A stretch of DNA of 64,000 nucleotides from Halomonas alkalisoli. Its GTDB lineage: Bacteria > Pseudomonadota > Gammaproteobacteria > Pseudomonadales > Halomonadaceae. Location: NCBI RefSeq assembly GCF_021412585.1, contig NZ_JAKCMI010000044.1, positions 248,001-312,000 on the forward strand, written 5' to 3'. Every line of letters begins with the position of its first letter. Position 1 is the stretch's first letter. A model generated the notes under the pieces. The model made no database searches and was not told the DNA's origin. It was given only the letters and a program-made list of their open reading frames with translations. Shown here piece after piece: positions 28,765 through 51,238 of the stretch. The position numbers and the translations under genes were made by a program.

Positions 28765-29832
28765 ATGGAGATGACGAAGATGATGATAGAGCGTGGCAGG
28801 CGAATTCTTCGTAGCCCGGCTACCTTGTCTCGAGCGGCACTCAAGGGGGTTCCGCAGGTGATGCCCGGTGTGATGATCTGCATCACCATTGCGCTGGCGA
28901 CCACCTTTATTGCCGATTATTACGGTGGCCCTACCCTGCTGTACGCGTTGCTGTTTGGCATGGCGCTCCACTTTCTTTCTGAAGAAGGGCGTTGCGTGGC
29001 CGGGATCGAATTCACCGCGCGAGTCATTCTGCGTGTTGGCGTCGCACTGCTCGGGGTGAGAATCACCCTTGAGCAGGTGGTTTCTCTGGGGGGCGGGCCA
29101 ATTGTCATGGCGATGGTAGGGGTGGTCTTGACCATCCTGATGGGGGCCCTCCTGGCCAGGCTGCTCGGCCTGCATCGAGACTTGGGCTTGTTGACGGGTG
29201 GGGCTGTGGCTATCTGTGGGGCGTCTGCGGCACTGGCCCTGTCCGCCGTCATGCCCCGTGAGGCTAACAGTGAGCGCAATACCATTCTCACGGTTGTCGG
29301 TGTCACCACACTGTCAACGGCGGCGATGGTGCTCTATCCATTGATCGTCGGTGTCCTCGGCCTCACGGACCAGCAGGCCGGGGTGTTTCTGGGGGCAACG
29401 ATCCACGATGTGGCTCAGGTCGTCGGCGCGGGATACATGATCTCGGAAGGTGCCGGCGATGTAGCGACATTCGTCAAGCTGATGCGTGTGGCGATGCTGG
29501 TGCCGGTCGTGATGTGTTTCATGTTTCTGTTTCGCCAGGCGCAAGCCAGCGAACGCAAGGGTGGGCTGCCCAGGTTGCCCGGCTTTCTGGTGGCCTTCGT
29601 GATGCTGGTGATCCTCAACAGCATGGGGGCGATACCTGAGAGCCTTGCCGATGGTATGACAGATCTTTCCCGCTGGTGCCTGGTGACGGCCATTGCCGCG
29701 CTGGGGATCAAGACGTCTTTCCAGAAGCTGGCCGTGGTGGGGTGGAGGCCGGTGATTCTGATGGTAGCCGAAACCGTCTTTCTGCTCGTTCTGGTGCTGG
29801 CGTTCATTCTGGCTGGTGGAGTCAGCCTTTAG
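28765..29832 (+). CDS. YeiH/UPF0324 family membrane protein, putative sulfur oxyanion exporter
   Basis: About 355 residues with ten or so membrane helices. The family signature appears as GVALLGVRITLEQV, GGAVAICGASAALALSAVMP and GATIHDVAQVVGAGYMIS. The family (E. coli YeiH) is usually annotated as a sulfate or sulfite exporter and is linked to the LysR regulator YeiE; a YeiE-like gene lies at 36903. In this cluster it could relieve sulfite produced by C-S cleavage. The start is uncertain: ATGs at 28765, 28771 and 28780 are all in frame, the last having GGAG at 9 bases. The longer upstream frame overlaps the broken fusion-protein gene and is not conserved. Confidence 0.85.
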   Translation: MEMTKMMIERGRRILRSPATLSRAALKGVPQVMPGVMICITIALATTFIADYYGGPTLLYALLFGMALHFLSEEGRCVAGIEFTARVILRVGVALLGVRITLEQVVSLGGGPIVMAMVGVVLTILMGALLARLLGLHRDLGLLTGGAVAICGASAALALSAVMPREANSERNTILTVVGVTTLSTAAMVLYPLIVGVLGLTDQQAGVFLGATIHDVAQVVGAGYMISEGAGDVATFVKLMRVAMLVPVVMCFMFLFRQAQASERKGGLPRLPGFLVAFVMLVILNSMGAIPESLADGMTDLSRWCLVTAIAALGIKTSFQKLAVVGWRPVILMVAETVFLLVLVLAFILAGGVSL

Positions 29833-29943
29833 CGCCTGCACTCGCCGACTGTTCGAACCTGGGGTTTCACGCCCAGGGCATCGTATTGTCCTGCGCTATT
29901 TTTCGCTGCTTCATTCTCCCGTGTTCTTACCCACACAGTCGAG

Positions 29944-29968
29944 CGCCGGCGGTGAGGTACCGCCGGCG
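29944..29968. terminator. Strong hairpin between convergent genes
   Basis: Perfect 10-pair stem CGCCGGCGGT / ACCGCCGGCG with a GAGGT loop, located between the convergent YeiH-type and VOC genes. There is no T run, so termination may be weak or it may serve in mRNA protection. Confidence 0.5.
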
Positions 29969-30018
29969 ACCGGGGAGAGACTCCTGCCCGTCCGTCACGG
30001 ACGAGGCATTGCGTGCCG

Positions 30019-30399
30019 TCAGGAGATATCGAAATGCCCCTGGGGGGCGAACTCGGCGACGCCACCTCCGGGCAGGCGGAACTTGACCGGGATGACGCCC
30101 GGGGCGCTGACCACTTCCAGGCCATGCTGTTCCACCATCTTCAAGAAGGCGTCCACGTCCTCCACCTCGAAGCCGAAGTGGTGGATGCCGGGCCCCGTGC
30201 CGCTGGCGCTCCCTTCTCGGGACGCCTGCTCGTCATCGTACTTGAGCAGGGCAATATCGATGTTGCCGTCGGTCATGTGACGGGAATAGTGATCCCGGTT
30301 ATGGCCCTGCCTGACATCCCGCAGGCCAAAAACCTTTTCATAGAATTCGCCCGCGGCGTCCAGATCATCCACTTTGATTGCAAGGTGAGCAATGCGCAT
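30019..30399 (-). CDS. VOC (glyoxalase/dioxygenase superfamily) protein
   Basis: 126 residues of the vicinal oxygen chelate fold, with two beta-alpha-beta-beta-beta modules: MRIAHLAIKVDDLDAAGEFYEKVFGL and GIHHFGFEVEDVDAFLKMVEQHG. Likely metal ligands are His5, His in GIHHFGFE and a C-terminal Glu (AEFAPQG). Members can be lyases, epimerases or dioxygenases, so the reaction cannot be assigned. It is divergent from the class II aldolase, and the shared 174-base gap contains one of the AT-rich operator sites. Confidence 0.85.
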   Translation of the reverse strand: MRIAHLAIKVDDLDAAGEFYEKVFGLRDVRQGHNRDHYSRHMTDGNIDIALLKYDDEQASREGSASGTGPGIHHFGFEVEDVDAFLKMVEQHGLEVVSAPGVIPVKFRLPGGGVAEFAPQGHFDIS

Positions 30400-30573: not shown

Positions 30574-31314
30574 ATGTCGTCTGCGATGGTGGAAGCAGTG
30601 CGGAAGCGTCTGGTCAGCGGCTGTCGGGTGCTGGCCGGGCATGATCAAGGCGATCTGATATGGGGGCATCTGTCGGTTCGCATGCCCGGCGAGCCGGACA
30701 AGCTGTTCATCAAGCCGGCGGGGCTGGGGCTTGAAGAGATCGATGACGAGCACCTGATTGTGGCTGACCTGGATGGCAACCGACTGACCGGCCGCTGGCC
30801 GATGCATGCCGAGGTCTTCATTCATACCGAGATTTTCCGCCGGCGTGCCGATGTCCAGGCGGTCGTGCACACACATCCCTGCCATGCCGTGGCCTTCAGT
30901 GCCCTGGGGGTCCCGCTGCAGCCGGTGGGTCATGAAGGGGCGCTGTTCATCGATGGGTTGCCTGTGTTCAGTCAGACCTCCGACCTGATCGTCAATGCCG
31001 AGTTGGGGCGGGCTTTGGCGAGCACGCTGGGCGCGGAGCGGGCGGCGCTGATGCGCAACCATGGCATTGTCACGGCGGGACAGAGCATCGGCGAGGCGGT
31101 GATGACGGCGTTGCTGCTCGAGAAGGCCTGCCGTGTGCAGCTGCTGGCGATGTCGGCTGGAGGGGGGCTGGTCCTTCCGACTGCTGCCGACGCCCGGGCC
31201 AAGCGCGACAGGCTATACCGTCCAGCGACCTTCGAGACGGCCTTCGATTATTGCGAGCGTCTTGTCGCCGCAAGGGCGAGCACAGGCTGCTCTTGCGGTG
31301 GCAATGAGCCTTAG
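30574..31314 (+). CDS. Class II aldolase/adducin family protein
   Basis: 246 residues with the fold of L-fuculose-phosphate aldolase and related epimerases or decarboxylases. The zinc-binding motif HTHP (VVHTHPCHAVAF) and a third His in LMRNHGIVTAG are present; KPAGLGLEEI is the phosphate-loop region of the family. It probably cleaves or rearranges a hydroxy-acid intermediate of the local pathway. AAAGGAGG precedes the ATG. The C-terminal CSCGGNEP tail is unusual. The gene stands alone downstream of operator-like site a, with the TctCBA genes following. Confidence 0.85.
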   Translation: MSSAMVEAVRKRLVSGCRVLAGHDQGDLIWGHLSVRMPGEPDKLFIKPAGLGLEEIDDEHLIVADLDGNRLTGRWPMHAEVFIHTEIFRRRADVQAVVHTHPCHAVAFSALGVPLQPVGHEGALFIDGLPVFSQTSDLIVNAELGRALASTLGAERAALMRNHGIVTAGQSIGEAVMTALLLEKACRVQLLAMSAGGGLVLPTAADARAKRDRLYRPATFETAFDYCERLVAARASTGCSCGGNEP

Positions 31315-31483: not shown

Positions 31484-31553
31484 TGGGAAGAGCAATGCCC
31501 GCAGGTGCTGGCCGCAGCGCCTAGAGGCTCCCCGTCAGATGAGGAGGACGACA

Positions 31554-32504
31554 ATGCGAAAAACAACAATGCTTCTATCGACACTAGTGGCACTGCCCCT
31601 GGCCATGCCAGTGGTGGCCGACACTCAGTGGCCCACGCAGGACGTGACATTGGTCACCCACTCCAGCTCCGGCGGGGGCGGGGATGTGATGCTGCGCAAC
31701 ATGGGACGTACCCTGGAGCAGAAGTTTGGCATCAATACCGTGGTGGATAACCGTGTCGGTGGCTCGGGGGCTGTGGCCATGTCCTGGATGGCCAACCAAG
31801 CCCCCAACGATGGATATACCATCCTGTCCGTCACGCCCACTCAGTTGATTACACCACTGCGAGCCCCAGGTATTCCCACCTATCAGGATCTGACGCCCAT
31901 TGCGCGCTTGCTGACGGATCCCACTACCCTGTATGTACACGAGAACAGCCAGTTTGAGACCATCGAAGAACTTCTCGAGCATGCACGGGAAAATCCGCGC
32001 AGCCTGAGTATCGGCATCGGTAGTGCGGGGTCGCTGGATCAGCTGGTACTGCAGAATTTTGCCAGGGAGACCGACATTGATGTGCGCACCATCCCTCATG
32101 AGGGGGGCGGCGATGCGGTCGTAGCCCTGCTGGGCGAGCATGTCGATGCCGTGATCGGTGAGCCCGGCCAGGCCCTGACCCATCTTGACTCCGGCACCTT
32201 ACGCATGCTGGCCGTCTTCCAGGAAGAGCGTCTTGAGACCTATCCAGAGGTGCCCACCTTGCAGGAGCTGGGCTACGAAGTGATTTCCAACAAGTTCCGC
32301 GGTGTCTTTGGTCCGCCGGATATGGACCCGGAGCTGGTCGAGGCGATCGGCAACACACTGCGCGATATCGTCGATGACGAGCCCTGGAAGACCTACTGGA
32401 GCGAGGGCAGCATGACACCTTCGTATCTAGGCCACGAAGAATTTACCGAGTTCCTGCACGTGGCCAATGAAGAGATCCGCGAGTTCGTTGAGGGTCTGCA
32501 GTAG
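31554..32504 (+). CDS. TTT transporter periplasmic substrate-binding protein (TctC family), system 1
   Basis: 316 residues: a signal peptide (MRKTTMLLSTLVALPLAMPVVA) and the Bug/TctC two-domain fold (TLVTHSSSGGGGDVMLRNM as the first binding loop, VDNRVGGSGAVAMSWMA, SIGIGSAGSLDQ, then VPTLQELGYEV near the end). Such proteins deliver carboxylates to TctAB. The start chosen has GAGGAGG 6 bases upstream; a longer start would begin inside that site. It heads the operon tctC-tctB-tctA-abrB. The ligand is unknown; context suggests an acidic, perhaps sulfonated, compound. Confidence 0.9.
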   Translation: MRKTTMLLSTLVALPLAMPVVADTQWPTQDVTLVTHSSSGGGGDVMLRNMGRTLEQKFGINTVVDNRVGGSGAVAMSWMANQAPNDGYTILSVTPTQLITPLRAPGIPTYQDLTPIARLLTDPTTLYVHENSQFETIEELLEHARENPRSLSIGIGSAGSLDQLVLQNFARETDIDVRTIPHEGGGDAVVALLGEHVDAVIGEPGQALTHLDSGTLRMLAVFQEERLETYPEVPTLQELGYEVISNKFRGVFGPPDMDPELVEAIGNTLRDIVDDEPWKTYWSEGSMTPSYLGHEEFTEFLHVANEEIREFVEGLQ

Positions 32505-32553
32505 GCTTCGGCGGTACTTGTTCAATCATTGACACTCCTCGCTAGCTGGTTGA

Positions 32554-32588
32554 GCAGGCATGGCCGATAGTGAGTCGGTCATGCCTGC
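32554..32588 (+). promoter_or_regulatory. Intercistronic hairpin between tctC and tctB (system 1)
   Basis: A 14-pair stem (arms GCAGGCATGGCCGA and TCGGTCATGCCTGC, one G-U) with a 7-base loop lies between the binding-protein gene and tctB. It has no T run. Such structures stabilise the upstream message, giving excess binding protein. The second TTT operon has a similar structure at the same place. Confidence 0.6.
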
Positions 32589-32627
32589 CGCCGCTCTCAA
32601 CTCGGCATTTCGATAAGGGTACGCCTG

Positions 32628-33164
32628 ATGAATCGTACCAATGTGCTTTCCGGGATCGTCTGCTTTGCCATCGGCGCCTTCGTCTTCTGGCTGTCGGCTG
32701 ACGTGCCCTCCTTCACGGCAACCGATGAGCTGGGTGGTCGCTTTTTTCCTCGCCTGATCTCGGTCCTGTTCATGCTCGCAAGCCTGGGGTTGATCATCAC
32801 GGGCTGGATGAATATCGAGATTCAGGGGGGCCAGGTCGGTGGTGGCAAGGGGAAGTCGGTACCCAGGGATGAGGACGAACGAGTCCCGGATGATGAACCC
32901 AGCGACGCGCTGACCATCGGCGGAATGCGCCCCGGGACCCTGAGGCTGTTCGGCTTTATCGCCGTCATGGCTGTCTACACGATGATTCTTCCGCTGATCG
33001 GCTACATCCCCGCTTCACTGGTGGTCTTTGCGGCCTTGATCATGATCGCCGGAGAATACCGGCCTCTACGGGTTATGCTTGGCACTATTGGTATCACCGC
33101 GGTGCTTTATCTGCTTTTTGCCGTTATCTTCGGAATGAATGTGCCAACGGCTTCGCTTTTCTAG
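32628..33164 (+). CDS. TTT transporter small membrane subunit (TctB family), system 1
   Basis: 178 residues with four predicted helices: VLSGIVCFAIGAFVFWLS, FPRLISVLFMLASLGLIITGW, LFGFIAVMAVYTMILPLIGYIPASLVVFAALIMIAG and LGTIGITAVLYLLFAVIFGM. A charged cytoplasmic loop lies in the middle (about 70-105, rich in Glu and Asp), longer than average. It works with TctA to import the ligand bound by TctC. Confidence 0.88.
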   Translation: MNRTNVLSGIVCFAIGAFVFWLSADVPSFTATDELGGRFFPRLISVLFMLASLGLIITGWMNIEIQGGQVGGGKGKSVPRDEDERVPDDEPSDALTIGGMRPGTLRLFGFIAVMAVYTMILPLIGYIPASLVVFAALIMIAGEYRPLRVMLGTIGITAVLYLLFAVIFGMNVPTASLF

Positions 33165-33232
33165 CGACCTACTCTCTAGTCGTAACTTTCAGTTTACGGT
33201 TAAAAAACAACCAGGCTCTAGAGGAAACCACT

Positions 33233-34732
33233 ATGATAGAGGTTGCCGCAATTGGCGAGGCTTTACTCAATGTTTTGTCGCCATATACTCTATTTTTTCT
33301 TGTCCTTGGTGTATTCATAGGCATCATTGCCGGAATACTGCCAGGCATCAATGGGGCTATCGGGATCAGCCTTATCCTGCCATTCACTTTTGGCATGCCC
33401 CCCGCAACGGCTCTTATCATGATGCTCGGGCTCTGGGGCGGGCAAAACTTTGGTGGCGGGGTGACGGCGGCGCTTGTGCATGCGCCGGGGGCAGCTTCGG
33501 GAGCAGCAACACTCTTCGACGGCTATCCGATGGCGCAGAAGGGGCAGGCCGGCAAGGCCCTGGGCATCATCTGTATCTCTTCCGCGATCGGGTGGTTTCT
33601 CAGCACCATTTTGTTGGCGGTGATCGCCCTGCCGCTAGCCGCTTTTGCCTTGCGCTTCAGCGCCCCCGAGTATTTTGCGGTAGGCGTCTTCGGCCTGAGT
33701 ATGGTGGCCAGCATGGCGACAAAGAACATTTTCAAGGGGGCTATTGCTACCTTGATGGGGTTGTTGATCGTGACCATCGGCACCGATCCCTTCAGCGGCC
33801 TGCCGCGTTTCACCTTCGGTCGCTTCGAACTCATGGATGGCATCAATTTTCTGATTGTGATGATCGGGGTTTTCGCCATCGCAGAAGTGCTGGTACAGGC
33901 ACAGAAGCCCAATGTCCAGGCGAAAGTGCAGGCTTTCTCGCGTGAACTGCCAACCTGGAAGGAAGTTCGAGCTCTACTGCCGACGATTTTCCGTTCCTCG
34001 GGTATCGGCATGCTGGTCGGCACGGCGCCGGGGGCAGGGGGGTCGATCGCAGCCTTCATCGCGTACAACGAGGCCAAGCGTTTCTCGAAGCATCCCGAGG
34101 AATTCGGGCACGGCTCCCAGGAGGGCGTGGCGGCACCCGAGGCCGCCAACAATGCCACCGAAGGTGGGGCCATGGTGCCCCTGCTGGCCCTGGGGGTGCC
34201 GGGATCGGGGGCTGCCGCCGTCATTCTGGCCTCGATGATCCTCTATGGCCTGCGTCCTGGCCCGCAGATTTTCACCGAACAGCCGGTGCTGGTGTATAGC
34301 CTGTTCTTCGGCCTGGCCATCGGTGCCGTGGTATTGTTGGTGCTCGGGCTGCTGCTGACGCCCTACCTGGCGCTGGTCATGCGCATTCCCAAGCCCTATC
34401 TGATTACCGGGGTGACGGGGATTGCCTTCATGGCCGCCATGGCGATCACCGGGCTGCTGTTCGATGTGAGGCTGGTGCTGTTCTTCGGTGTCCTCGGCTA
34501 CATCATGCGCAAGCTGGATTTCCCGCCGGCGCCGATGATTCTGGCCCTCGTACTGGGCTTCATGATCGAGACCTCGCTGCGCCGGGCGCTCATCATGTCG
34601 GATGGTGACTGGACGGTATTCTTCACGCGGCCTATTTCGGCGGTAATTCTCTGTGTGGCCTTGTTGTCCTTCTTCTACCCGATGATTCGCGAGGTCGTGA
34701 GCCGGCAACGGGCTAAGCGTCGTCAGGCTTGA
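33233..34732 (+). CDS. TTT transporter large membrane subunit (TctA family), system 1
   Basis: 499 residues, about 12 helices, with the TctA signatures [15 protein letters not shown] and [17 protein letters not shown] and the second repeat [21 protein letters not shown]. The first conserved loop reads [15 protein letters not shown] where many members read IPGTxSS, which may reflect a different substrate. It is in operon with tctC and tctB and precedes an AbrB-family gene. Confidence 0.92.
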
Positions 34733-34760: not shown

Positions 34761-35852
34761 GTGGCGATAGCTCATGCATGTGATGCTTGTGTCATGAGCC
34801 CACCAACCCCTGGGGCCCGCCGGGAGTCATATAGCGGCTTCTTTCGTGCCTGGGGCATCGGCCTGGTGGGCGGTGGGTTGGCAAGCTGGGCCGGGATACC
34901 GCTGGCCTGGATGCTGGGGCCGCTGTTTGCCGCCATGCTGATATCCCTAGCCGGGATTTCGCTGTCGATGCCCAGCCCCTTGCGCATTGGTTCTCGCGGC
35001 ATGGTCGGCATGCTGTTGGGCTCGGCGGTGACGCCCGAGACCTTTGAGCGCGTGAGCCAATGGCCTTTCAGCCTGATGCTGATGGTGTTGGGACTGCTGT
35101 TGATGTCCGTGTTGACCGCGAGTTACTACCGGTGCATTGGCGGCTTCGATCGGCTCTCGGCGGTGTCGGCCTCGTTGCCGGGGGCGATTAGCAATATTCC
35201 GGCAATAGCCATACGCATGGGGGCAAACGGGCCCAAGGTCGTTCTCTCGCACCTGGCAAGAGTCACGTTGGTGATTATGGTCGTGCCGCCGCTGTATATG
35301 GCGTGGCAGGGCCTCGACGCTGGCCTGGAGCGCGGCAATCCCACATCGTGGAACTTGCTGGGGGAGCATCTGTGGATCCTGCCGGCGGCCCTCCCGGCCG
35401 GGTTTCTGGCTCGCCGGCTGAGCCTGCCGGTTCCCGAGATGATCGGTCCGATGATCGCGGCGTCGATACTGTCGCTGATGGGGTATCGCCTCGCGTTGCC
35501 TGAGTGGCTGCTCGCCGGGACCTTCCTGGTGCTCGGCACCACGATCGGAGCGCGCTTCTACCGCATGCCCTTGTCACTGCTGGTGGGCACCGGTCGCCAT
35601 GCGCTGCTGGCGACCCTCGTCACTTTGGCCACGGCAGTGGCAGTGGCGGTCGTCATGCATACTGTGCTGGGCGTTCCCCTGGCGGTGGCGCTGCTCGCGG
35701 TGATTCCCGGCGGGCTTGCTGAGATGGCCTTGCTGGCAGCGGCCTTGGGTGTCGATCCCGTCTTCGTGACGTTCCATCAGATCGCTCGCAGCATCCTGCT
35801 GAACGCGCTGGCGCCCTTCGTGTTGCGGCTGTTTGGGGGGCGCTCGGGGTAG
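34761..35852 (+). CDS. AbrB-family membrane protein 1 (PF05145 type)
   Basis: About 352-363 residues with ten helices in two repeats. The repeats have the signatures GLASWAGIPLAWMLGPLFAAML and GFLARRLSLPVPEMIGPMIAAS plus SLPGAISNIPAIA and VIPGGLAEMALLAAALGVDP. The family is often mislabelled ammonia monooxygenase and is commonly found beside TTT transporters; its transport function is not established. The start could be GTG 34761 or ATG 34794; neither has a strong ribosome site. The stop abuts the convergent GntR gene with no bases between. Confidence 0.8.
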   Translation: MAIAHACDACVMSPPTPGARRESYSGFFRAWGIGLVGGGLASWAGIPLAWMLGPLFAAMLISLAGISLSMPSPLRIGSRGMVGMLLGSAVTPETFERVSQWPFSLMLMVLGLLLMSVLTASYYRCIGGFDRLSAVSASLPGAISNIPAIAIRMGANGPKVVLSHLARVTLVIMVVPPLYMAWQGLDAGLERGNPTSWNLLGEHLWILPAALPAGFLARRLSLPVPEMIGPMIAASILSLMGYRLALPEWLLAGTFLVLGTTIGARFYRMPLSLLVGTGRHALLATLVTLATAVAVAVVMHTVLGVPLAVALLAVIPGGLAEMALLAAALGVDPVFVTFHQIARSILLNALAPFVLRLFGGRSG

Positions 35853-36695
35853 CTAGCCCATTTCGTTGCGGTAGTGGATGGTATCGGTCATGCCGACCAT
35901 GGTGCGCCATTCCACCGGTTCGCCGCCCAGGCTGTAGGCTACGCGCTCGACTTCCAGTACCGCAATGCCCGGCTCGATGGACAGGAAGCGGGCCTCTTCC
36001 GCGGTGGCCGCCCGTGCCCGGACTTGTTCCACGACCTTGGTGATTAGCAGGTTGTATTCCTGTTCCAGAATCAGGTAAATGGAGCCCGGCGAGTGCTGCT
36101 GTAGGATTCGCCAGGCCTCGGGGCACAGATCGTCGGACAGGAAGATTCGCTCGAGCAGGACGGGGCGGGCATCCAGATGACGCAGGCGCAGGGTTTCGGT
36201 GCCCGTCGACCCGGGAGCGATATGCAGGCCGTGGGCGATACGTTCATCGGCCTCGGCTTGGCGTGTCTCCAGGTAGGTCGCCTCGTTACCCGCCACCTTA
36301 CCCCCGGTGTTGCGGTAGAGTTGGTGGAAGCGGAAGGGCTGGTAATCGCCGTTATGCGAGGTGACGAAAGTGCCTTTGCCGGCCTGTCGCGTCACCAGGC
36401 CTTCACTCGCCATTTCCTCGATGGCTTTACGTACCGTGCCTTGGCTGAGATGGTATTCTTCGGCAAGGCGCATTTCGCTGGGCAGGCACTGGCCCGGTTT
36501 CCATTCACCCTTGAGCACCCGATAGACAAGGTGTTGCTTGACCTGCTGATACAAGGGCTTAGAGCTGGGTCTGGTCTCATTCATGCCGGTAGGCGGTTCC
36601 TGGTGAGGAGCGGTCGTCGCCCGCTTGCGAGGCATGACGACGTCTGGGGGTGGCGTGGCCTGGGAGTCATGACGTGATTTTTCCATGGGGCGCAT
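35853..36695 (-). CDS. GntR-family regulator, HutC subfamily (UTRA domain)
   Basis: 280 residues: a disordered basic N-terminal extension (about 1-45), a winged helix (about 46-115, PLYQQVKQHLVYRVLKGEWKP and HLSQGTVRKAIEEMASEGLV) and a UTRA ligand-binding domain (about 130-275, ending VEWRTMVGMTDTIHYRNEMG). UTRA regulators bind small-molecule effectors and usually repress. Several starts are possible (36695, 36686, 36584); the first two follow GAGAGG. The AT-rich site at 36739-36764 is just upstream of its own gene, and the same kind of site precedes the other units. It is the best candidate for their common regulator. Confidence 0.88.
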   Translation of the reverse strand: MRPMEKSRHDSQATPPPDVVMPRKRATTAPHQEPPTGMNETRPSSKPLYQQVKQHLVYRVLKGEWKPGQCLPSEMRLAEEYHLSQGTVRKAIEEMASEGLVTRQAGKGTFVTSHNGDYQPFRFHQLYRNTGGKVAGNEATYLETRQAEADERIAHGLHIAPGSTGTETLRLRHLDARPVLLERIFLSDDLCPEAWRILQQHSPGSIYLILEQEYNLLITKVVEQVRARAATAEEARFLSIEPGIAVLEVERVAYSLGGEPVEWRTMVGMTDTIHYRNEMG

Positions 36696-41705: not shown

Positions 41706-41716
41706 GTTGGGCTCCA

Positions 41717-41744
41717 TAATGATAATTTATATAAAATAAAAGAA
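41717..41744. promoter_or_regulatory. AT-rich operator-like site d (between MmgE/PrpD genes)
   Basis: Contains ATAATTTATATAAAAT inside an AT stretch; matches the ATTATATAA-type core of the other sites with one difference. It is 12 bases before the start of the second MmgE/PrpD gene and 36 after the end of the third, which suggests an internal promoter. Confidence 0.5.
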
Positions 41745-41779
41745 AACATACCATAAGGCAACGAATACCACAGCCTTCG

Positions 41780-43165: not shown

Positions 43166-43215
43166 AGTTCCTCCCGTGGTATCGCTGTTGATTTGGGGTG
43201 TCGCCGTCGAGGCGG

Positions 43216-44007: not shown

Positions 44008-44201
44008 CAGAACTCCTCACGTGGGAAGACGGGGGGGATCGGGTCGACGGCATTCATCTGGTCACCGAGCTCGGCCTCGATCTGCTCCATGGCGGTCAGC
44101 CAGGTGGAGAGGCGAGTCGCGATATTGCTGAGTTCATCGTCGGGAATCGTCAGACCCTGTAGCTGTGCCATGACTTTGACTTGTTCGATGCTGAGGTTCA
44201 T
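44007..44201 (-). CDS. AtzG-like small amidase partner (DUF4089 type)
   Basis: 64 residues: SIEQVKVMAQLQGLTIPDDELSNIATRLSTWLTAMEQIEAEL, then DPIPPVFPREEF. This is the GatC/AtzG-like pattern, a helical N-terminus followed by a Pro-rich tail that wraps the amidase. In the cyanuric acid pathway AtzG stabilises AtzE, the 1-carboxybiuret hydrolase. The gene lies directly after the amidase, with 24 bases between, and before the ComA-family gene with a one-base overlap. Confidence 0.8.
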   Translation of the reverse strand: MNLSIEQVKVMAQLQGLTIPDDELSNIATRLSTWLTAMEQIEAELGDQMNAVDPIPPVFPREEF

Positions 44202-44225
44202 AGGTATCTCCAGTTCGCTATCGGT

Positions 44226-45686
44226 TCAGGCGACGCCCTTGAGCGTGGTGTCGAGGGCTGGATGGTGACGATGCCACGCGGAGGCTTGTTGGAAGGCATG
44301 GCCTACTCGGAACACGGTCGCCTCATCGAAGGGTCGCCCGGCAATCTGCAGGGCCAGGGGGAGGCCTTCGCTTGAGAAGCCGGCCGGCACTGAGAGCGCC
44401 GGTACGTTCGACAGGCTGAAGGGGTAGTGGCAGATGCGTCGCTCGATCAATCGGGCTACCACGTCCTGCTGGTCGCCATCGACCCGCTCCTGGGTGGCCT
44501 CGATGAGCTTGGGCGGCGTCACGTTGGTGGGGGTGATCAGGGCATCGTAGCGGCGCAGCGCATCCAGGACCTGTCGTCTCACCAGCACCCGGGCGCGCAT
44601 GGCGCGATTGTAAACGCTGGCCGGTATCAAGCTTGCGGCGGCCAGCCGGGTGCGCGTGCCGACATCGAAGCGTTGGTAGCGGTCGCGAAGGTAGTTGGCC
44701 AGGAAGTAGGCTCCGACATCGGCATCGGCGCTCAACAGCTGCAAGGGAACCGCCCATTTCGCCAGCGGCAGGGAGACTTCCTCGACCACGGCGCCTTGTT
44801 CACGCAAGGTCTGGATGGCTTGTACCATGGCCTCGCGCACCTCGGGGTGGGTGGCCTCGCCCCAGGCGATCTCCTTGACCACCGCCAGCTTCAGCCCCTT
44901 CAGGTCGCGGCCTAGCCGGGCGCTGAAGTCCGGCACTTCGCGGGGTATGCACAGCGGATCCTTGGGATCATGCCCGGCAATGGCCTGCAGCACCGCGGCG
45001 CAATCTTCGACGCTGCGGGTCAGGGGGCCGAAGGTGTCGCTGGTATAAGCGGCCATCACACCCCCGTGACGGCTGACGCGGCCATGGGTGGGACGCAGCC
45101 CCACCACGCCGTTGCAGGAGGCCGGGCCGCGCACCGAGCCGCCGGTGTCCTCGCCGATGGAAAAACTGCACTGGCCCGCCGCCGTGGCTATGCCGGATCC
45201 GGTGGAGGAGCTAGAGGCCGTATGCGCGGGGTTCCAGGGGTTGCGGGGTTGGCCGTAGGGGAACTCGATGGTGCCGCCCTTGCCGAACTCGTGCAGGTTC
45301 TGCTTGCCGATCAGCACGGCACCGGCATCGCGCAGGCGGGTGATGATGGTGGCGTCATGGGGGGGCTGCATCTCTTCCGGATCCAGCACCTTGGTGCCCA
45401 GGGTGGTGGGCAGCCCCAGGGCATGCATCTGGTCCTTGACGCCATACGGCAGGCCATGGAGGGGGCCGCGGTAGTGGCCCTGGGCAATTTCCTGTTCCGC
45501 CTGGCGTGCCTGTTTCATGGCGAACTCGCGGTCGACAGTGATCCAGGCGCGTAGAGTGTCGTCATAGCACTCGATGCGATCCAGGTAGGTTTCCAGCAGC
45601 TCGACCGGTGACAGCTGGCCGGATTCAATCAGGCGGGCCTGCTCGGTGGCTGTCAGATAGTGAAGCTCGTTGTTTGGCGTGGACAT
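44226..45686 (-). CDS. AtzE-like amidase (amidase signature family)
   Basis: 486 residues. The Ser-cisSer-Lys catalytic triad is visible as YGVKDQ (Lys), ASSSSTGSG (cis-Ser region) and DTGGSVRGPAS (Ser nucleophile). It resembles AtzE/GatA-type hydrolases and is followed by its AtzG-like partner. It would hydrolyse a carboxamide bond, releasing ammonia or an amine from the imported compound. It follows the second TTT transporter genes in the same leftward operon with 86 bases between. Confidence 0.9.
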   Translation of the reverse strand: MSTPNNELHYLTATEQARLIESGQLSPVELLETYLDRIECYDDTLRAWITVDREFAMKQARQAEQEIAQGHYRGPLHGLPYGVKDQMHALGLPTTLGTKVLDPEEMQPPHDATIITRLRDAGAVLIGKQNLHEFGKGGTIEFPYGQPRNPWNPAHTASSSSTGSGIATAAGQCSFSIGEDTGGSVRGPASCNGVVGLRPTHGRVSRHGGVMAAYTSDTFGPLTRSVEDCAAVLQAIAGHDPKDPLCIPREVPDFSARLGRDLKGLKLAVVKEIAWGEATHPEVREAMVQAIQTLREQGAVVEEVSLPLAKWAVPLQLLSADADVGAYFLANYLRDRYQRFDVGTRTRLAAASLIPASVYNRAMRARVLVRRQVLDALRRYDALITPTNVTPPKLIEATQERVDGDQQDVVARLIERRICHYPFSLSNVPALSVPAGFSSEGLPLALQIAGRPFDEATVFRVGHAFQQASAWHRHHPALDTTLKGVA

Positions 45687-45772
45687 GCTATCTCCTTGTT
45701 TCTGGTGTCAGGCGTGGTGGTAACAGGTGCCGTCAGTGCTCCCTGCTGCAACCTCGCGTTGAAATGTTCTGG

Positions 45773-47287
45773 CTAAGCGCTGCGGTTGCGAGTGCGCCAC
45801 GCGGTGAACTTGCGCATGATCAGCGGCTGCAGCAGCGACAGCACCAGCAGGATCGCGAAGGCCATGGCCACCGGCCGGCCCAGGAAAAAGGCGAGTTCAC
45901 CACCACCGCTGATCTGCCAGGTACGTATCAGTTCGCTCTCGACCATTCGTCCCAGCAGCAGGCCGACGACGCAGGCGGCGACAGGGTAGCCGTAGCGCTT
46001 CATCAACCAGCCCAGCCCAGCGAAGACGAACAGGGTGATCGGGCCGGCGTGATCGCCGGTTACCGCGAAGGAACCGATCAATGCTAGGACCAACACCGAG
46101 GGGATCAGGATAGTCAGCGGCACGCGAACGATGTTGCCGGCGACGGCCAGAAAACCTAGCCCGACGACCAGGAGTAGGGCGGCCTGGATGAAATTGCCGA
46201 AGATGATGGTGTAGACGATGTCCATGTTCTGGTTGATGAACTGAGGGCCGCCGGTGACGTTGTGCATGGCAAAGGCCGCGAGCAGCATGGCTGTGCCACC
46301 GCCACCGGGTAGGCCCAAGGCCAGCATGGTAACCATCGAGCCACCCTCCGAGCTGCTGTTGGCGGACTCGGCGGCCATGACTCCCTTGGGGTTGCCCTTG
46401 CCGTAGCTGTCGGGGTCCTTGTCAGTGCGCTTGGCCTGGGCGTAAGCGATCAGGTTGCCTACCGAGGAGCCCACTCCGGGGATGGCGCCGACGAAGACAC
46501 CGATCAGGGTGCCGCGCAGCTGGAAGAACGGATAGCGCAGCACCGACAGGAAGCCTGACAGCACACGTCGGTAGTCGGCACGGCGTGCCGCCTTGTCCTT
46601 GATCAGGAATTGGCTGCCGACCAAGGTGAAGAGCTGGCTGGCGGCGAACATGCCCATCATGGCCGGTACCACGGGGATGCCGTCGAGCAGGAAAGGAATG
46701 TCCATGGTGCCGCGAACATAGCCACTAGTATTCATGCCGACGGTACCTAGTAGCAGCCCAAAGCCACCGGCGATCAAACCGCGGGACAATCGCTTGCCGC
46801 CCAGGGCGGCGATCATCGTCAGGCCCCACAGGGCGACCAGCAGCATCTCCGCCGGGCCTAGACGGATGACCCAGTTCCCCAGGGGCGCGACCACGAATAG
46901 CAGGATGATGTAGCCCACCAGTACGCCCAGAACAGAACTCATCAGCGCCAGGCCCAGAGCTTCGTTGTGCAGGCCCTTGCGAGCCATGGGGTAACCATCG
47001 AAGGTGGTGGCCACCGAGGAGGTGGTGCCGGGGATGCCCATGAGTATCGAGGTCACCGCCCCACCATAGCCACCACCGGTGAAGATGGCGGTGAGAAACA
47101 TCACCGCCGGAAGGAAATCCATGTACAGGGTCAGGGGCAGGCAGATGGCCATGGCCATGGTGTTGGAAACACCGGCGATGGACCCGGCGATCAAGCCGAT
47201 CAACAGGCCCGGGATGATCACCAGCCAGATATTGATGTCGCTGCCTAGCAGCGATATGGCGCCCAGGATAGCCGAGGAATCAAGCAT
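45773..47287 (-). CDS. TTT transporter large membrane subunit (TctA family), system 2
   Basis: 504 residues, about 12 helices. Signatures: GLIAGSIAGVSNTMAMAICLPLT, the canonical MGIPGTTSSVATTFDGYPMARKG and GAIPGVGSSVGNLIAYAQAKR. Thirteen bases separate it from the tctB-type gene upstream. Unlike system 1 it retains the canonical IPGTxSS loop, so the two systems may take different ligands. Confidence 0.92.
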   Translation of the reverse strand: MLDSSAILGAISLLGSDINIWLVIIPGLLIGLIAGSIAGVSNTMAMAICLPLTLYMDFLPAVMFLTAIFTGGGYGGAVTSILMGIPGTTSSVATTFDGYPMARKGLHNEALGLALMSSVLGVLVGYIILLFVVAPLGNWVIRLGPAEMLLVALWGLTMIAALGGKRLSRGLIAGGFGLLLGTVGMNTSGYVRGTMDIPFLLDGIPVVPAMMGMFAASQLFTLVGSQFLIKDKAARRADYRRVLSGFLSVLRYPFFQLRGTLIGVFVGAIPGVGSSVGNLIAYAQAKRTDKDPDSYGKGNPKGVMAAESANSSSEGGSMVTMLALGLPGGGGTAMLLAAFAMHNVTGGPQFINQNMDIVYTIIFGNFIQAALLLVVGLGFLAVAGNIVRVPLTILIPSVLVLALIGSFAVTGDHAGPITLFVFAGLGWLMKRYGYPVAACVVGLLLGRMVESELIRTWQISGGGELAFFLGRPVAMAFAILLVLSLLQPLIMRKFTAWRTRNRSA

Positions 47288-47299
47288 GATGTGGCACTC

Positions 47300-47806
47300 T
47301 CAGAACAGCAGGGTCGGCAGGGGGTACGGCAGCAGCCTGGAGGCCCCCCCCACCACTACCGCGGTAAAGCTGGCGGCGTAGATCGGGACGAAGAGCCAGC
47401 CGCGAACGCCCAGCAACAACAGGGCGAAGATCATAAAGAGCAGGGTGGCGACGTCCAGTCCGATCAGGGGGTAGGACATCACCAGGGCCCCGACACCCAG
47501 TAACAGCAGGAAAGCGTGCAGCAGGTCCATGGGGGACTGCTCCTGCTCCAGCTCGTCCCGTTCGTGATTAGGAAGCTGAGTAGCACGCTTCTGCACAGGA
47601 TGTTTTCGAAATCGGATACATTGCGTTACTACCAGCAGGCACAGTCCCAGTAGCAGCATTGCGAGTGGAACCACCAGGATGATGTTGTTGATGTTCCGGG
47701 AAACCTGCAGGGTATCGGCGAGATAGAAACCGGTTACCCCGGCAATCACGATAACCAGGGCTAGGTGTCCATACTCGACATCGATCTTCCAGGGGCCAAG
47801 GCGCAT
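47300..47806 (-). CDS. TTT transporter small membrane subunit (TctB family), system 2
   Basis: 168 residues with four helices (HLALVIVIAGVTGFYLADT, IILVVPLAMLLLGLCLLVV, LLHAFLLLLGVGALVMSYPLIG and LDVATLLFMIFALLLLGVRG) and a charged central loop. Partner of the adjacent TctA and TctC. The binding-protein gene is 85 bases upstream with a palindromic hairpin between. Confidence 0.85.
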   Translation of the reverse strand: MRLGPWKIDVEYGHLALVIVIAGVTGFYLADTLQVSRNINNIILVVPLAMLLLGLCLLVVTQCIRFRKHPVQKRATQLPNHERDELEQEQSPMDLLHAFLLLLGVGALVMSYPLIGLDVATLLFMIFALLLLGVRGWLFVPIYAASFTAVVVGGASRLLPYPLPTLLF

Positions 47807-47856
47807 AGCGGCACCTCTCGGGGAGTGGGGTAGTGACTCGGGTAGTAACTAAGCAG

Positions 47857-47882
47857 AGAGACGCAGCCATGGCTGCGTCTCT
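47857..47882. promoter_or_regulatory. Perfect 26-base palindrome between tctC and tctB (system 2)
   Basis: Arms AGAGACGCAGCCA and TGGCTGCGTCTCT form a hairpin in the message right after the binding-protein gene. No T run follows on the coding strand. As in system 1, it likely protects the upstream transcript and sets a high binding-protein ratio. Confidence 0.6.
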
Positions 47883-47890
47883 TGCCTCAC

Positions 47891-48913
47891 TTAGTTGGGC
47901 CGTACCAGTTCGAGAAGTTCCGGATCGCTGATCGCCTCGTGTTGGCGCAGCATCAATTCGCGGGATTCGTCCGGTCCAACCCAGTCGATCCCCAGGTCTT
48001 GACCCTCATGGTCCTCGATGGCCTCGGGGTTTTCGGACACCTTCTGGAAGGCTTCGACGATCTTGGCGTAGCGCTCAGGGTAGGTCTCCATCAGTTCGGT
48101 ATGGACGAAGTAACCCTGTATATGCCCAGACACGATGCGGGGATACTCGATCCCTTCTGCTTCCGCCACCTCGAGGACATGGGGGGCATCCCAGACCTGG
48201 GAGGGTTCTTCGGAGAAGACCATTAGCGGCCGGAACTCGCCCTTGCGCGCCTGCATGCCCTGGTCGCCGATCGCTCCGACGTCGAACTGACCGCCGATGA
48301 TGCCATTGCGCACCGGGCCACCGCTGTCATAGGTGACGACCCTCACATCGTCACGGTTTACCCCGATGGCCTCCAGGAAAATGGCCAGATTGATCATGTC
48401 CGTTGAAGTGGGCTGCACACCGATGCTGACGGTGCCGGGATTCTCGCGGATCTCGGCGATTAGTTCATCGATGTTGGAGAAGCGGCTGTCATTTGAGGTG
48501 GCGATGATGGAGGTGCCGATATCACTCAGATTCACCGGCTGAAAATCCTCGATCTCGAAGTCAGCCCCCTGGACCAGCTGGTTGACGGTCATGTAGGGGA
48601 AGGCCGTGGTGCGCATCAGGGTGTAGCCGTCGGCAGGCTGCTGGTGGAAATAGACGTGGCCCAGCATGTTACCGCCGCCAGGACGGTTGACTACCTGGAT
48701 GGGTTGGCCCAGTTCTTCGGCCAGGTACCGCGAGATCAGGCGCGCGGCTCGGTCATTGGTGCCGCCGGTTCCCGCCGGGACGACCATGGTGAGCGGTCTG
48801 TCGGGGAACTCATCCGCGCTCACACTGTTGGCGCCGATGACCATGGCGCTTGCCATGGCGACTGCGGTGGCAAGCTTGCTCATTCTACGGGTGCGGTTGA
48901 ATTTCAATTTCAT
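47891..48913 (-). CDS. TTT transporter periplasmic substrate-binding protein (TctC family), system 2
   Basis: 340 residues. Signal peptide (KLKFNRTRRMSKLATAVAMASAMVIGANSVSA) and Bug/TctC fold: VVPAGTGGTNDRAARLISRYL as the first ligand loop, VVNRPGGGNMLGHVYF, VSIGVQPTSTDMINLAIF. The start is the ATG 5 bases after GGAGAGGG; a longer frame runs into the upstream AT-rich site. It heads the long leftward operon tctC-tctB-tctA-amidase-AtzG-ComA-three MmgE/PrpD genes-TauE. Ligand unknown. Confidence 0.9.
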   Translation of the reverse strand: MKLKFNRTRRMSKLATAVAMASAMVIGANSVSADEFPDRPLTMVVPAGTGGTNDRAARLISRYLAEELGQPIQVVNRPGGGNMLGHVYFHQQPADGYTLMRTTAFPYMTVNQLVQGADFEIEDFQPVNLSDIGTSIIATSNDSRFSNIDELIAEIRENPGTVSIGVQPTSTDMINLAIFLEAIGVNRDDVRVVTYDSGGPVRNGIIGGQFDVGAIGDQGMQARKGEFRPLMVFSEEPSQVWDAPHVLEVAEAEGIEYPRIVSGHIQGYFVHTELMETYPERYAKIVEAFQKVSENPEAIEDHEGQDLGIDWVGPDESRELMLRQHEAISDPELLELVRPN

Positions 48914-48984
48914 CAGTACCCTCTCCTCTCGGGTGTGGCTGGCGGGCAGCCATCGATTGTCGTTGTGTGAGATCAGGCGTTTTG

Positions 48985-49010
48985 TTTGTATATTATATAT
49001 AAGATACAAA
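48985..49010. promoter_or_regulatory. AT-rich operator-like site e (second TTT operon)
   Basis: The best-formed site: TTTGTAT and ATACAAA half-sites frame the TATATTATATA core, giving a 26-base near-palindrome. It is 72 bases before the tctC start and probably overlaps the operon promoter. Confidence 0.65.
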
Positions 49011-49077
49011 TTTTCAGCTGTCAAACTGATACTGCTAGTAATTCGTCGACTGCAGCCGATTGTTCATCTGTCGGCAC

Positions 49078-49848
49078 TCAGTTGAGGTAGGTTCCCCCAT
49101 TGACGTGCACAGTCTGGCCAGTCATGAAACGGCCATCCGGTCCGCACAGCATCTGCACGACCCCGGCAATCTCCGCGGCCGTACCACGACGCCCTAGCAG
49201 TGGCTTATGTATCGCATGATGCTTGGGCTTGGCGGCCACGGTGGAGGTGTCGCGTTTTGTCTCCACCATGCCTGGAGATACCAGGTTGGCGGTGACACCG
49301 TAGTCGGCCAGGTCCCAGGCCAGTGCCTTTGTGAGCCCCATCAGCCCGGCCTTGCCGGTGACTACATGAACCCTGTCGCTGCCACCGGAGCTGCCTGTCA
49401 TGCCGCCGATGTTGACAATGGCGCCTGCGCTGCTCTTGATCAGGTGCGGAGTGGCCGCCCTGGCGCACAGGAAGGCGCCGTCGAGGATGATGGCCAGGAT
49501 CTCCTTCCAGTCCTCCAAGCTCACGGTCTGCAGCTTGGCTTCCCGTCTCACCGCGGCATTGTTGACCAGGATGTCCAGGCCCCCAAATGTCTCGATTGCG
49601 CAACCGATCAGGCGCTCGACATCGCTTTCGTTGGTGACGTCGGCCAGGCAGCCGACTGCCTGGCCGCCGCTGTCATGAATCTCCTGGACGACCTGCTCGA
49701 CCTGCTCACGGCTAGAGCGGGCGTTGACCACGACGGCGGCGCCCTCTGCAGCCAGGCGGACGGCAATGGCTTTCCCGATGTTCCTGGCGCTGCCGGTGAC
49801 AATGGCAACGCGACCTTCCAGGGGGCGTTGTCCAGTTGACTGTGTCAT
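49078..49848 (-). CDS. Short-chain dehydrogenase/reductase with altered active site
   Basis: 256 residues of the classical SDR fold. The nucleotide-binding site is VTGSARNIG, a variant of TGxxxGIG, and NNAAV replaces NNAG. The end is MTGQTVHVNGGTYLN as usual. The catalytic region reads NIGGMTGSSGGSDRVHVVTGKAG: the Lys is kept, but the Ser position has Gly and the Tyr position has Val, with a His next to it. It may therefore be a non-canonical enzyme or have lost activity. An AT-rich site lies upstream at 49951-49975, so it is probably co-regulated with the cluster. Confidence 0.85.
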   Translation of the reverse strand: MTQSTGQRPLEGRVAIVTGSARNIGKAIAVRLAAEGAAVVVNARSSREQVEQVVQEIHDSGGQAVGCLADVTNESDVERLIGCAIETFGGLDILVNNAAVRREAKLQTVSLEDWKEILAIILDGAFLCARAATPHLIKSSAGAIVNIGGMTGSSGGSDRVHVVTGKAGLMGLTKALAWDLADYGVTANLVSPGMVETKRDTSTVAAKPKHHAIHKPLLGRRGTAAEIAGVVQMLCGPDGRFMTGQTVHVNGGTYLN

Positions 49849-50188
49849 TTTCTTCTCCTGGGTTGCGTAGGGGCCGCACGCGGTCTTGTGCAGGCGGCGG
49901 GATGGCGGGGGAGGTTCGACGGGGCGCAGGCCTCATTTGCCTCTCGCTTAATTTTATATATTATATAACTTTAAGAATGCAAGCCTTGGATTGACCACTT
50001 GCGCCGAAGGGGCGCGAAGGTGGCATGGGGCAGAGGCCTGATGGCTTCGAGGGCCGGCCGCTGCCTGTGTGGCGGGGTGAGGTCAATCAAGCAGCTCAAA
50101 GGGTTGCGACTGGAAAGGGTGAAAACCTTGGATACTCAATGGCTTCCAAATGCAAATCTGAATGCCTCGGCTTCCGGTGGGCGTTGAC
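49849..50188. other. Divergent intergenic region
   Basis: About 340 bases between the SDR gene and the second AbrB-type gene. Apart from operator-like site f there is nothing I can support; the short open frames have no recognisable motif. Promoters for both flanking genes should lie here. Confidence 0.5.
49951..49975. promoter_or_regulatory. AT-rich operator-like site f (SDR / abrB2 divergon)
   Basis: TTATATATTATATAA at 49954-49968 within an AT-rich 25-base stretch, 103 bases before the SDR gene and 220 before the AbrB-type gene. It shares the TATATTATATAA core with sites a and e. Confidence 0.6.
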
Positions 50189-51238
50189 ATGGGAAACCTG
50201 CAGAGAGGATGGCTGCGCACGCTTGGCATCGGGGGGATTGGAGGTGCGCTCTTCATGGTGCTGGGGCTGCCGGTGCCCTGGTTGCTCGGGGCCTTGTTTG
50301 CGGGCATCGTAGCCATGTTCCTGGGCGTGTGCTGGGAATCCCCGTGGCATGGACGGGCTCTCGGGCAGGTGCTGGTCGGCAGTACCCTTGGCTTTGCCTT
50401 TACTCAGGACGTGCTGGCGCAAGTGGTCGCCATGGCGGGCCCGATACTGCTGGGTGCCAGCCTTTCCATACTTTCGGGACTGGTGACGGCGGTTGTACTG
50501 AGGAGGACGCTGGTTGGCGACTGGGCAACGGCTTACTTCGCGTCGATGCCGGCAGGGCTTGCCGAGATGTCTCTGCTGGGCGCGCGTCATGGTGGCAATC
50601 CTGTGATCATCATTACCTGCCATGTGCTGCGTGTGGTGAGTATCGTCTGTCTCGTCCCCCTGGGCTTCGTCCTCTTATATGGCGGCGATTGGCAGGATAT
50701 GACCATCGTTCGGCCCAATGGTGTCTCCCACCCCGGGTGGCTGCCCATCACCGTTGCAGGGGCCGTGCTGGTTGCCCTACTGTTCCAGCGCCTGCGCATC
50801 CCCAATGCACTGATTCTGGGCAGTATCTGTTTTGGTGCCAGCGTGCAGCTGATGGACATTCCGCTGCCGGCGATTCCCGAGGCATTGTTTGCCTTCGGGC
50901 AGGTGCTGCTGGGAGCCACCCTGGCCATGGAGTTTACCCGTGAGCGCATGTCGGCCCTGCAGACATATGCCTTACCGGCGGTCAGTGTCACGGCACTATT
51001 GATGTCGATGAGCCTGACAATTGCCCTGTATCTGAGCTGGCTATTCGATCTGGATGGGATCACATCGGTGATTGCCATGTCACCTGCCGGGTCGGTGGAA
51101 ATGGCGGTCACCGCGGTATCGCTAGGTGCCGAATTCCAGCTGGTTATTGCCTTTCACCTTGCCAGGGTATTCATGATCAACGGCTTGATGGGGCCGATTT
51201 TTAGCGTCGTGCATTATTGGATCGCGCGGCGTGATTGA
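50189..51238 (+). CDS. AbrB-family membrane protein 2 (PF05145 type)
   Basis: 349 residues with about ten helices in two repeats (GGALFMVLGLPVPWLLGALFAG, LLFQRLRIPNALILGSICFG, SMPAGLAEMSLLGARHGGNP and MSPAGSVEMAVTAVSLGAEF). It is related to the AbrB-type protein at 34761, so the cluster holds one per TTT system. The start is the ATG after GGTGGG; an alternative in-frame ATG is at 50162. Transport role not established. Confidence 0.8.
   Translation: MGNLQRGWLRTLGIGGIGGALFMVLGLPVPWLLGALFAGIVAMFLGVCWESPWHGRALGQVLVGSTLGFAFTQDVLAQVVAMAGPILLGASLSILSGLVTAVVLRRTLVGDWATAYFASMPAGLAEMSLLGARHGGNPVIIITCHVLRVVSIVCLVPLGFVLLYGGDWQDMTIVRPNGVSHPGWLPITVAGAVLVALLFQRLRIPNALILGSICFGASVQLMDIPLPAIPEALFAFGQVLLGATLAMEFTRERMSALQTYALPAVSVTALLMSMSLTIALYLSWLFDLDGITSVIAMSPAGSVEMAVTAVSLGAEFQLVIAFHLARVFMINGLMGPIFSVVHYWIARRD

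Follow-up and report, generated by a model that had tools for sequence, protein, structure and literature searches.

The described protein closest to the one studied here is the phosphosulfolactate synthase ComA, which is known from M. jannaschii (1qwg), from Bacillus as YitD (1u83), and from a Xanthobacter plasmid (a homolog that is presumably XcbA). A relative with the same Pfam family (PF02679) is encoded in a stretch of 64,000 nucleotides of Halomonas alkalisoli (contig NZ_JAKCMI010000044.1, positions 248,001 to 312,000; "the window"). There its gene lies in a cluster together with three genes of the MmgE/PrpD family (MmgE1, MmgE2 and MmgE3), two sets of tripartite tricarboxylate transporter (TTT) genes of the TctCBA type and a gene for a short-chain dehydrogenase/reductase (SDR). 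To our knowledge, no lyase has been assigned for sulfonated polycarboxylates. Two described routes share the proposed end of the pathway suggested below. The SuyAB pathways for sulfolactate and sulfosugars, as treated in the relevant part of PMC12421959, lead to C-S cleavage to sulfite and export by TauE; no identified gene of the window cluster is SuyAB-like, and the ComA-like protein would be the lyase that cleaves instead. During degradation of mercaptosuccinate by Advenella mimigardefordensis (PMC5373536, main text), a sulfur-bearing succinate yields sulfite and TTT-family proteins appear in the proteome, but that route uses a thiol dioxygenase (Msdo) and the main text does not mention MmgE proteins. 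The earlier note on this DNA had stated that no described pathway has this set of genes, and indeed nothing on it was found in the open-access literature under sulfosuccinate, sulfotricarballylate or catabolic ComA. The gene set is conserved and apparently undescribed.

ComA homologs were gathered by scans of genomes and plasmids (the scan of named genomes used a two-sequence ComA alignment), and the presence of genes at other loci was determined by tblastn with the window proteins; simple calling of open reading frames (ORFs) had missed the ComA gene in the high-GC locus L023. Together with the window, six loci with closely related ComA-like proteins (at least 46% identity) were obtained. The identities to the window protein are 98% in Billgrantia aerodenitrificans MCCC 1A11058 (G063), which belongs to the same genus as the genome of the window, 69% in a Rhodobacteraceae metagenome-assembled genome (MAG), 47% in a groundwater proteobacterial MAG, 48% in a Dongia MAG and 50% in G947, a genome from a class-wide sample. 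The groundwater and the Dongia MAG share one genus group, and the six loci represent four lineages. The genes for ComA, MmgE1, MmgE2, MmgE3 and TctC/TctA-type proteins occur together in all six loci, and beyond the two Billgrantia loci the three MmgE proteins are 54-76% identical to those of the window. An SDR and a GntR-type (HutC-type) regulator are encoded in five of the six. Of the two transporter sets of the window, TctC1-TctB1-TctA1 is the one that the TctA proteins of three of the four other distinct loci resemble more closely. The earlier note had counted the lack of a conserved neighbourhood in related genomes among its grounds for refutation; this ground is removed by the repeated occurrence of ComA with MmgE/PrpD and TctC/TctA genes.

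The whole genome of the window contains a single ComA hit and four MmgE/PrpD genes, three of which are in the cluster. Within its family ComA is rare: 4 of 250 genomes gave a match, which was full-length (98%) in one of the same genus, consisted of two partial hits in a second and was weak in a third, the remaining genome being its own. In a sample of the phylum, ComA was detected in 3 of 398 (its own and two with matches of 46% and 26%). Because ComA and MmgE genes are so few genome-wide and because ComA and the MmgE trio are found together in other genomes as well, the grouping is not due to chance. It is very improbable that unrelated catabolic genes were merely assembled on an island beside a tRNA-Arg gene. 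For such an assembly speak the tRNA-Arg gene and the phage genes directly upstream, as well as the outer genes for an aldolase, a YeiH-family protein and an amidase, which are outside the shared set; against it stand the recurrence of the core in four lineages and the overlaps of core genes in the window. Chance assembly is disfavoured for the core and could apply to the outer genes. Very probably, the cluster is an operon of conserved design for the catabolism of a polycarboxylate. The cluster region comprises the following features, which were assigned by Pfam unless another source is given:

28765..29832, plus strand, YeiH-family (PF03601) membrane protein, outside the shared core
30019..30399, minus strand, VOC protein; a 64% homolog is in the G947 cluster (tblastn)
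30574..31314, plus strand, class II aldolase family protein, peripheral
31539..34732, plus strand, TctC1-TctB1-TctA1, tripartite tricarboxylate transporter
34761..35852, plus strand, AbrB-family (PF05145) membrane protein 1
35853..36695, minus strand, GntR/UTRA (HutC-type) regulator; orthologs of 45-52% in three other clusters (tblastn)
36903..37811, plus strand, LysR regulator, distant YeiE relative (Pfam; NCBIfam under cut-off)
37832..38599, minus strand, TauE/SafE-family (PF01925) putative exporter
38822..40237, minus strand, MmgE3 (MmgE/PrpD)
40317..41717, minus strand, MmgE2 (MmgE/PrpD)
41780..43219, minus strand, MmgE1 (MmgE/PrpD)
43216..44007, minus strand, ComA-like protein, PF02679 (Pfam, NCBIfam, alignment and tree)
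44007..44201, minus strand, AtzG/GatC-like small ORF of 64 amino acids (label by eye)
44226..45686, minus strand, amidase-signature hydrolase (PF01425), below the AtzE cut-off, peripheral
45773..47287, minus strand, TctA2
47300..47806, minus strand, TctB2
47891..49024, minus strand, TctC2 substrate-binding protein, start codon uncertain
49078..49848, minus strand, SDR dehydrogenase
50162..51238, plus strand, AbrB-family membrane protein 2, with a relative (31%) close to the Dongia cluster

On the minus strand, the genes for the SDR, TctC2, TctB2, TctA2, the amidase, the AtzG-like ORF, the ComA-like protein, MmgE1, MmgE2 and MmgE3 follow each other from 49848 to 38822. Within this run the intergenic gaps are 12 to 86 bases, and there are two overlaps, namely of 1 base between the AtzG-like ORF and the start of the ComA-like gene and of 4 bases between the latter and MmgE1. 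The run reads as one operon, and two operons are also plausible. The TauE gene starts 222 bases after the end of MmgE3, and the operon plus TauE covers 37832-49848.

The families that the earlier note had named, i.e., the YeiH family, VOC, aldolase, two TctCBA sets, TauE, three MmgE/PrpD proteins, ComA, amidase, SDR and the regulators, were all recovered with Pfam, while its finer names fell below curated cut-offs. The amidase reached 279 bits with the AtzE model TIGR02715 (cut-off 425.75), the LysR regulator 285 with the YeiE model NF040889 (cut-off 480), the PF03601 protein 141.5 with the YeiH model TIGR00698 (cut-off 232.6), and the GntR/UTRA regulator 117 with the HutC model TIGR02018 (cut-off 220). 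The AtzG-like ORF (44007-44201) gave no match in the Pfam search, and the aldolase (30574..31314) reached no curated cut-off among the best 25 of 29 NCBIfam matches. All three MmgE/PrpD proteins contain both the N-terminal domain PF03972 and the C-terminal domain PF19305, and with 19-56 bits they stay below the cut-offs for 2-methylcitrate dehydratase PrpD (TIGR02330, 458; NF042438, 950). The TauE protein matches PF01925 with 91.7 bits (cut-off 32.6); the TauE family is broad, and membership alone is uninformative about the substrate. Relatives of the amidase, the aldolase, the YeiH protein and the LysR regulator were not found in the examined flanks of the four loci outside Billgrantia. The proposals that the substrate may be amidated and that a second exporter takes part thus apply to Billgrantia only, and the amidase, the aldolase, the YeiH protein and the YeiE-like regulator lie outside the shared core.

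The ComA-like protein matches PF02679 with 191 bits (cut-off 25.2) and stays below the archaeal ComA equivalog TIGR03849 (148 versus 280), a model that bacterial synthases might fail too. An alignment and a tree were generated with 32 family sequences, from which the matches of G836 and G1033 (stop in frame) and those of G196 and G231 (partial or weak) had been excluded. The proteins of the six loci form a clade of their own (support 1.000), separate from a canonical group of nine sequences (support 0.979), which contains the M. jannaschii, YitD, Xanthobacter, Nocardioides and Legionella plasmid proteins and four more. The Arg of the R-E-S-G/R-A-D-A motif is present in 9/9 canonical proteins, the E-A-P motif likewise in all nine and the Gly-Thr pair in eight; none of the three is found in any of the six proteins of the close clade, which instead have E-G-(L/V/I)-(N/S)-E, Q-A-K, and G-V or G-A at these positions. 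In common with the synthases, the clade has the Lys of the F-V-K strand as well as E-x-S and E-x-G-x-K. This Lys, K153 in the window protein, corresponds to K137 of M. jannaschii, a putative catalytic residue, and it is present in all six proteins. The residue check proposed in the earlier note thus gave a divided answer, because the putative catalytic Lys is kept and three motifs of the phosphosulfolactate synthases are gone. As these motifs are absent, the protein was not filed as a phosphosulfolactate synthase in spite of the Lys. Judged from the alignment, the loss of the Arg suggests a phosphate-free substrate. The motif Arg is likewise missing from three further homologs that carry the annotation phosphosulfolactate synthase.

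A biosynthetic operon for phosphosulfolactate or a coenzyme M-like cofactor would be compatible with membership in the ComA Pfam family and with ComD/ComE-like genes in G947. It appears extremely improbable, in view of the missed archaeal cut-off, the lost motifs, and the two importers and three MmgE/PrpD genes, which fit catabolism. This role was dropped because of the lost motifs and because no ComD match was found in the genomes of the window and of B. aerodenitrificans. It should be added that bacterial coenzyme M-type routes without sulfopyruvate decarboxylase exist.

A second feature concerns the MmgE/PrpD proteins. The solved structures nearest to the trio are iminodisuccinate (IDS) epimerase (2hp0/2hp3) and cis-aconitate decarboxylases; both family domains are shared, and the window proteins are distant relatives, so that no activity is implied. 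For IDS epimerase, PMC7347537 proposes H99 and Y145 as the two bases and equates H99 with H103 of human cis-aconitate decarboxylase, and according to PMC11814083 the exchange of H103 for Ala leads to loss of activity. Counted along the alignment rows of 2hp3, H99 is the His of a G-H-P-S stretch and Y145 the Tyr of G-H-Y. MmgE3 retains both the His and the Tyr, and MmgE2 retains the His. MmgE1 has an Arg at the position of the catalytic His and thus departs from both enzymes. Across the loci of the close ComA clade, MmgE1 has the Arg in 6/6 and MmgE2 the His in 6/6 cases. The Arg was compared with 24 further loci that encode MmgE1/MmgE2-type proteins and lack a ComA of the close clade (18 from genomes, six from plasmids). 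A His is present in 23 of them, including a second G947 copy and Paracoccus versutus, which has a distant ComA nearby. The Arg is found in one, that of Sodalis praecaptivus. The substitution is linked near-exclusively with the close ComA clade.

Sodalis praecaptivus breaks a strict pairing of MmgE1-Arg and ComA: no ComA match was obtained in 21 kb around the MmgE1-Arg gene or in the plasmid scan (the chromosome was not searched). On its plasmid pHS1 (L127), the MmgE1-Arg gene is divergent from genes for an ornithine-cyclodeaminase-type protein, an ATP-binding cassette (ABC) transporter, a flavocytochrome c-like protein and a TauD-family protein, and a carbon-phosphorus (C-P) lyase operon converges with the region.

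Similar gene sets also occur without ComA. Among 385 genomes of the class of Dongia, 20 have an MmgE1-type match of at least 49% identity, and 3 of these 20 hold the close ComA clade. Of 18 opened loci without a close-clade ComA, 12 encode an SDR 47-58% identical to that of the window and 14 a TctA-type gene; some also have ABC transporter genes together with a regulator of the FCD type, and several end at contig edges. G754 (L112), Neorhizobium and Phyllobacterium have MmgE3 (63-64%), His-type MmgE1/2, SDR (47-53%) and Tct genes and no ComA. In general, SDR orthologs are 49-67% identical in three other ComA clusters and 44-58% in many ComA-less clusters. These alphaproteobacterial clusters thus share MmgE1/2-type, sometimes MmgE3, SDR and Tct relatives with the window, and some also contain ABC and FCD genes and tartrate- or isocitrate-type dehydrogenases; they differ by the missing close-clade ComA and by His instead of Arg in the MmgE1/2-type protein. 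Adjoining the ComA core, the groundwater and Dongia loci have an operon for an alpha/beta hydrolase, ABC proteins, an MmgE/PrpD protein, an enolase-superfamily protein, and isocitrate-type and tartrate-type dehydrogenases. Three of its products, namely the hydrolase, one of the dehydrogenases and the MmgE/PrpD protein, have relatives of 67-83% in the ComA-less clusters of Neorhizobium and Phyllobacterium. In the class of the window, a strict MmgE1 match was found in 1 of 369 sampled genomes, its own. Because similar MmgE/SDR/Tct sets occur without ComA, the ComA-like protein and MmgE1-Arg, often with TauE, are best viewed as supplementing a polycarboxylate route that was already in place. This supplement would strip an anionic group, most likely sulfite, from a polycarboxylate ahead of the general route.

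With a probability of roughly 0.4, the substrate is a polycarboxylate with an additional anionic group, most likely a sulfonate, e.g., a sulfosuccinate- or sulfotricarballylate-like compound. We infer every reaction, its direction and the sulfonate from the observed gene content, linkage, motif loss, Arg substitution and ComA-less sets. TctCBA would import the substituted polycarboxylate, and MmgE1-Arg may bind it or set it up for the next step. The ComA-like protein would act as a lyase that reverses ComA chemistry: the conserved Lys would abstract a proton, sulfite would be expelled, and an unsaturated polycarboxylate would be left. MmgE2, MmgE3 and the SDR could hydrate, isomerize and oxidize this product towards central metabolism, TauE would export the sulfite, and the HutC-type regulator would control the gene set. 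In the window, the amidase pair may broaden the substrate range.

The lean to sulfur, which agrees with the sulfonate proposed in the earlier note, stems from the ComA homology, the linkage of TauE and a ComD/ComE-like pair in one cluster; the release of sulfite itself is a prediction. TauE orthologs are at the cluster in four of the six genomes (the window, B. aerodenitrificans, the groundwater MAG and the Dongia MAG; 52-54% identity in the MAGs). The gene directly neighbours ComA in the groundwater MAG and is no more than 3 kb away from it in the Dongia MAG, and in Billgrantia it follows downstream of the operon. On the G947 contig, a ComD-like protein is above the cut-off for the sulfopyruvate decarboxylase alpha subunit (167 versus 148 bits) and a ComE-like protein is below its cut-off (200 versus 221.5 bits). 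G947 as a whole has three ComA-family matches (L051, L052 and L053), and the model for the alpha subunit of sulfopyruvate decarboxylase hits it four times, once over the cut-off.

Several observations weigh against the sulfonate. With three phosphosulfolactate synthase motifs lost, homology to ComA alone would be no proof of sulfite chemistry, and the Lys is absent from a more distant MmgE-linked ComA of G446. The distribution of TauE is patchy: by tblastn, G639 has a match of only 27% that is located elsewhere, and G947 has none. A ComD above the cut-off is present in one of the six cluster genomes, without a match in those of the window (G000) and B. aerodenitrificans (G063), and no ortholog of the SDR or the HutC-type regulator was found in the 30 kb of G947 examined. 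The sulfonate is further disfavoured by the Sodalis locus, in which MmgE1-Arg adjoins the ornithine-cyclodeaminase-type gene and is near the C-P lyase operon. The Arg is not strictly a partner of ComA, and nitrogen- or phosphorus-containing substrates are possible.

Only slightly less probable than the sulfonate is a competitor in which the same polycarboxylate operon is free of sulfur, the ComA-like protein is a lyase or isomerase for a C-C, C-O or C-N bond, and an organic acid is what the TauE-family protein exports. It would account for the three lost motifs, for the absence of a TauE ortholog in two of the six genomes and for the resemblance of the remaining operon genes to ComA-less polycarboxylate sets. 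A gene of the ornithine-cyclodeaminase type (imine reductase family) neighbours ComA in G947 and Dongia, and in Sodalis such a gene neighbours MmgE1-Arg; taken with IDS epimerase as the nearest solved MmgE/PrpD protein, it points to C-N substrates. A sulfur-free operon has to contend with TauE at the cluster in four of six genomes (two of the four lineages), with a third lineage that has ComD/ComE-like genes, and with the conservation of the Lys and the E-x-G-x-K region of ComA.

A phosphonate-bearing polycarboxylate with a phosphorus-based leaving group is improbable. Apart from the C-P lyase operon in Sodalis, it is suggested by the Sodalis ABC transporter, whose ATPase (54%) and permease (34%) are related to those of a transporter next to the Dongia cluster, and by the binding protein on the Dongia side, which weakly matches a putative aminoethylphosphonate transporter model (75 bits versus a cut-off of 393). 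The phn operon of Sodalis converges on MmgE1, however, and may be a chance neighbour, and the ComD-like protein is nearer to sulfopyruvate than to phosphonopyruvate decarboxylase (167 versus 92 bits).

Returning to the sulfonate, it is tempting to speculate, doubtful as this more specific proposal is, that the clade constitutes a new class of sulfite-eliminating C-S lyases, which would have evolved from ComA via loss of the phosphate signature and become paired with the His-to-Arg exchange in MmgE for the use of sulfonated polycarboxylates. The substrates would be of the kind formed by addition of sulfite to aconitate, fumarate or similar compounds, and the products would be fed into the existing polycarboxylate route. 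If a sulfonate is indeed the substrate, a marker gene and an enzyme for the turnover of sulfonated polycarboxylates would be at hand, and ComA chemistry would be employed for breakdown. Even if the substrate is free of sulfur, ComA homologs in catabolic clusters carry the annotation phosphosulfolactate synthase, in three proteins in spite of the missing motif Arg.

More distant ComA-like proteins were found in related surroundings. On pTAV3 of Paracoccus versutus the ComA-like gene adjoins TcuA, and MmgE/PrpD, PrpF, TctCBA, SDR and AbrB genes are present there. On the megaplasmid p53363 of Bradyrhizobium guangxiense (L123, a peanut-root strain), MmgE/PrpD, PrpF and ComA-like genes stand in a row, and six more Bradyrhizobium plasmid records matched ComA in the plasmid scan. 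TcuA and an isocitrate-type dehydrogenase are encoded beside ComA-like genes on contig 37 of G694 and at a second G947 locus, and in G446 and G872 an MmgE/PrpD gene adjoins the ComA-like gene with Tct genes close by. No such neighbours were seen in the annotations of Chelativorans and Arthrobacter or, by tblastn with the window proteins, at most remaining ComA loci. ComA is linked to tri- and dicarboxylate enzymes in several branches, not in all. If a new class of lyases existed, it would also take in the ComA-like groups that neighbour TcuA, PrpF and isocitrate-type dehydrogenases.

The ornithine-cyclodeaminase-type gene was considered as a core partner and rejected, as orthologs of at least 50% identity are present in only two of the six cluster genomes (G640 and G947). 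Two other plasmids contain ComA-family genes in different settings. A Legionella lytica plasmid (L122) has a 2913-base coding sequence annotated as phosphosulfolactate synthase, which is much longer than ComA and is followed by a gene for 2-phosphosulfolactate phosphatase. On a plasmid of Arthrobacter sp. ERGS1:01 (L124), the ComA-like gene lies between those for a CocE/NonD hydrolase and a thioredoxin reductase, and a UGSC-family protein is encoded nearby.

At the borders of the window cluster, a tRNA-Arg(CCT) gene at 27594-27670 adjoins the first genes and is a possible integration site. To its left are genes for a phage-like integrase (16382-17719), a primase-like protein (18832-21633) and a tail tape-measure-like protein (23980-25554). 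At the other end, an Hsp70-like protein (51350-52747) adjoins AbrB-family protein 2 and has a 34% relative beside TauE in the Dongia locus (L025, 7553-8809), and another gene of the amidase family (PF01425, 282.7 bits) is located just beyond the cluster at 53651-55114.

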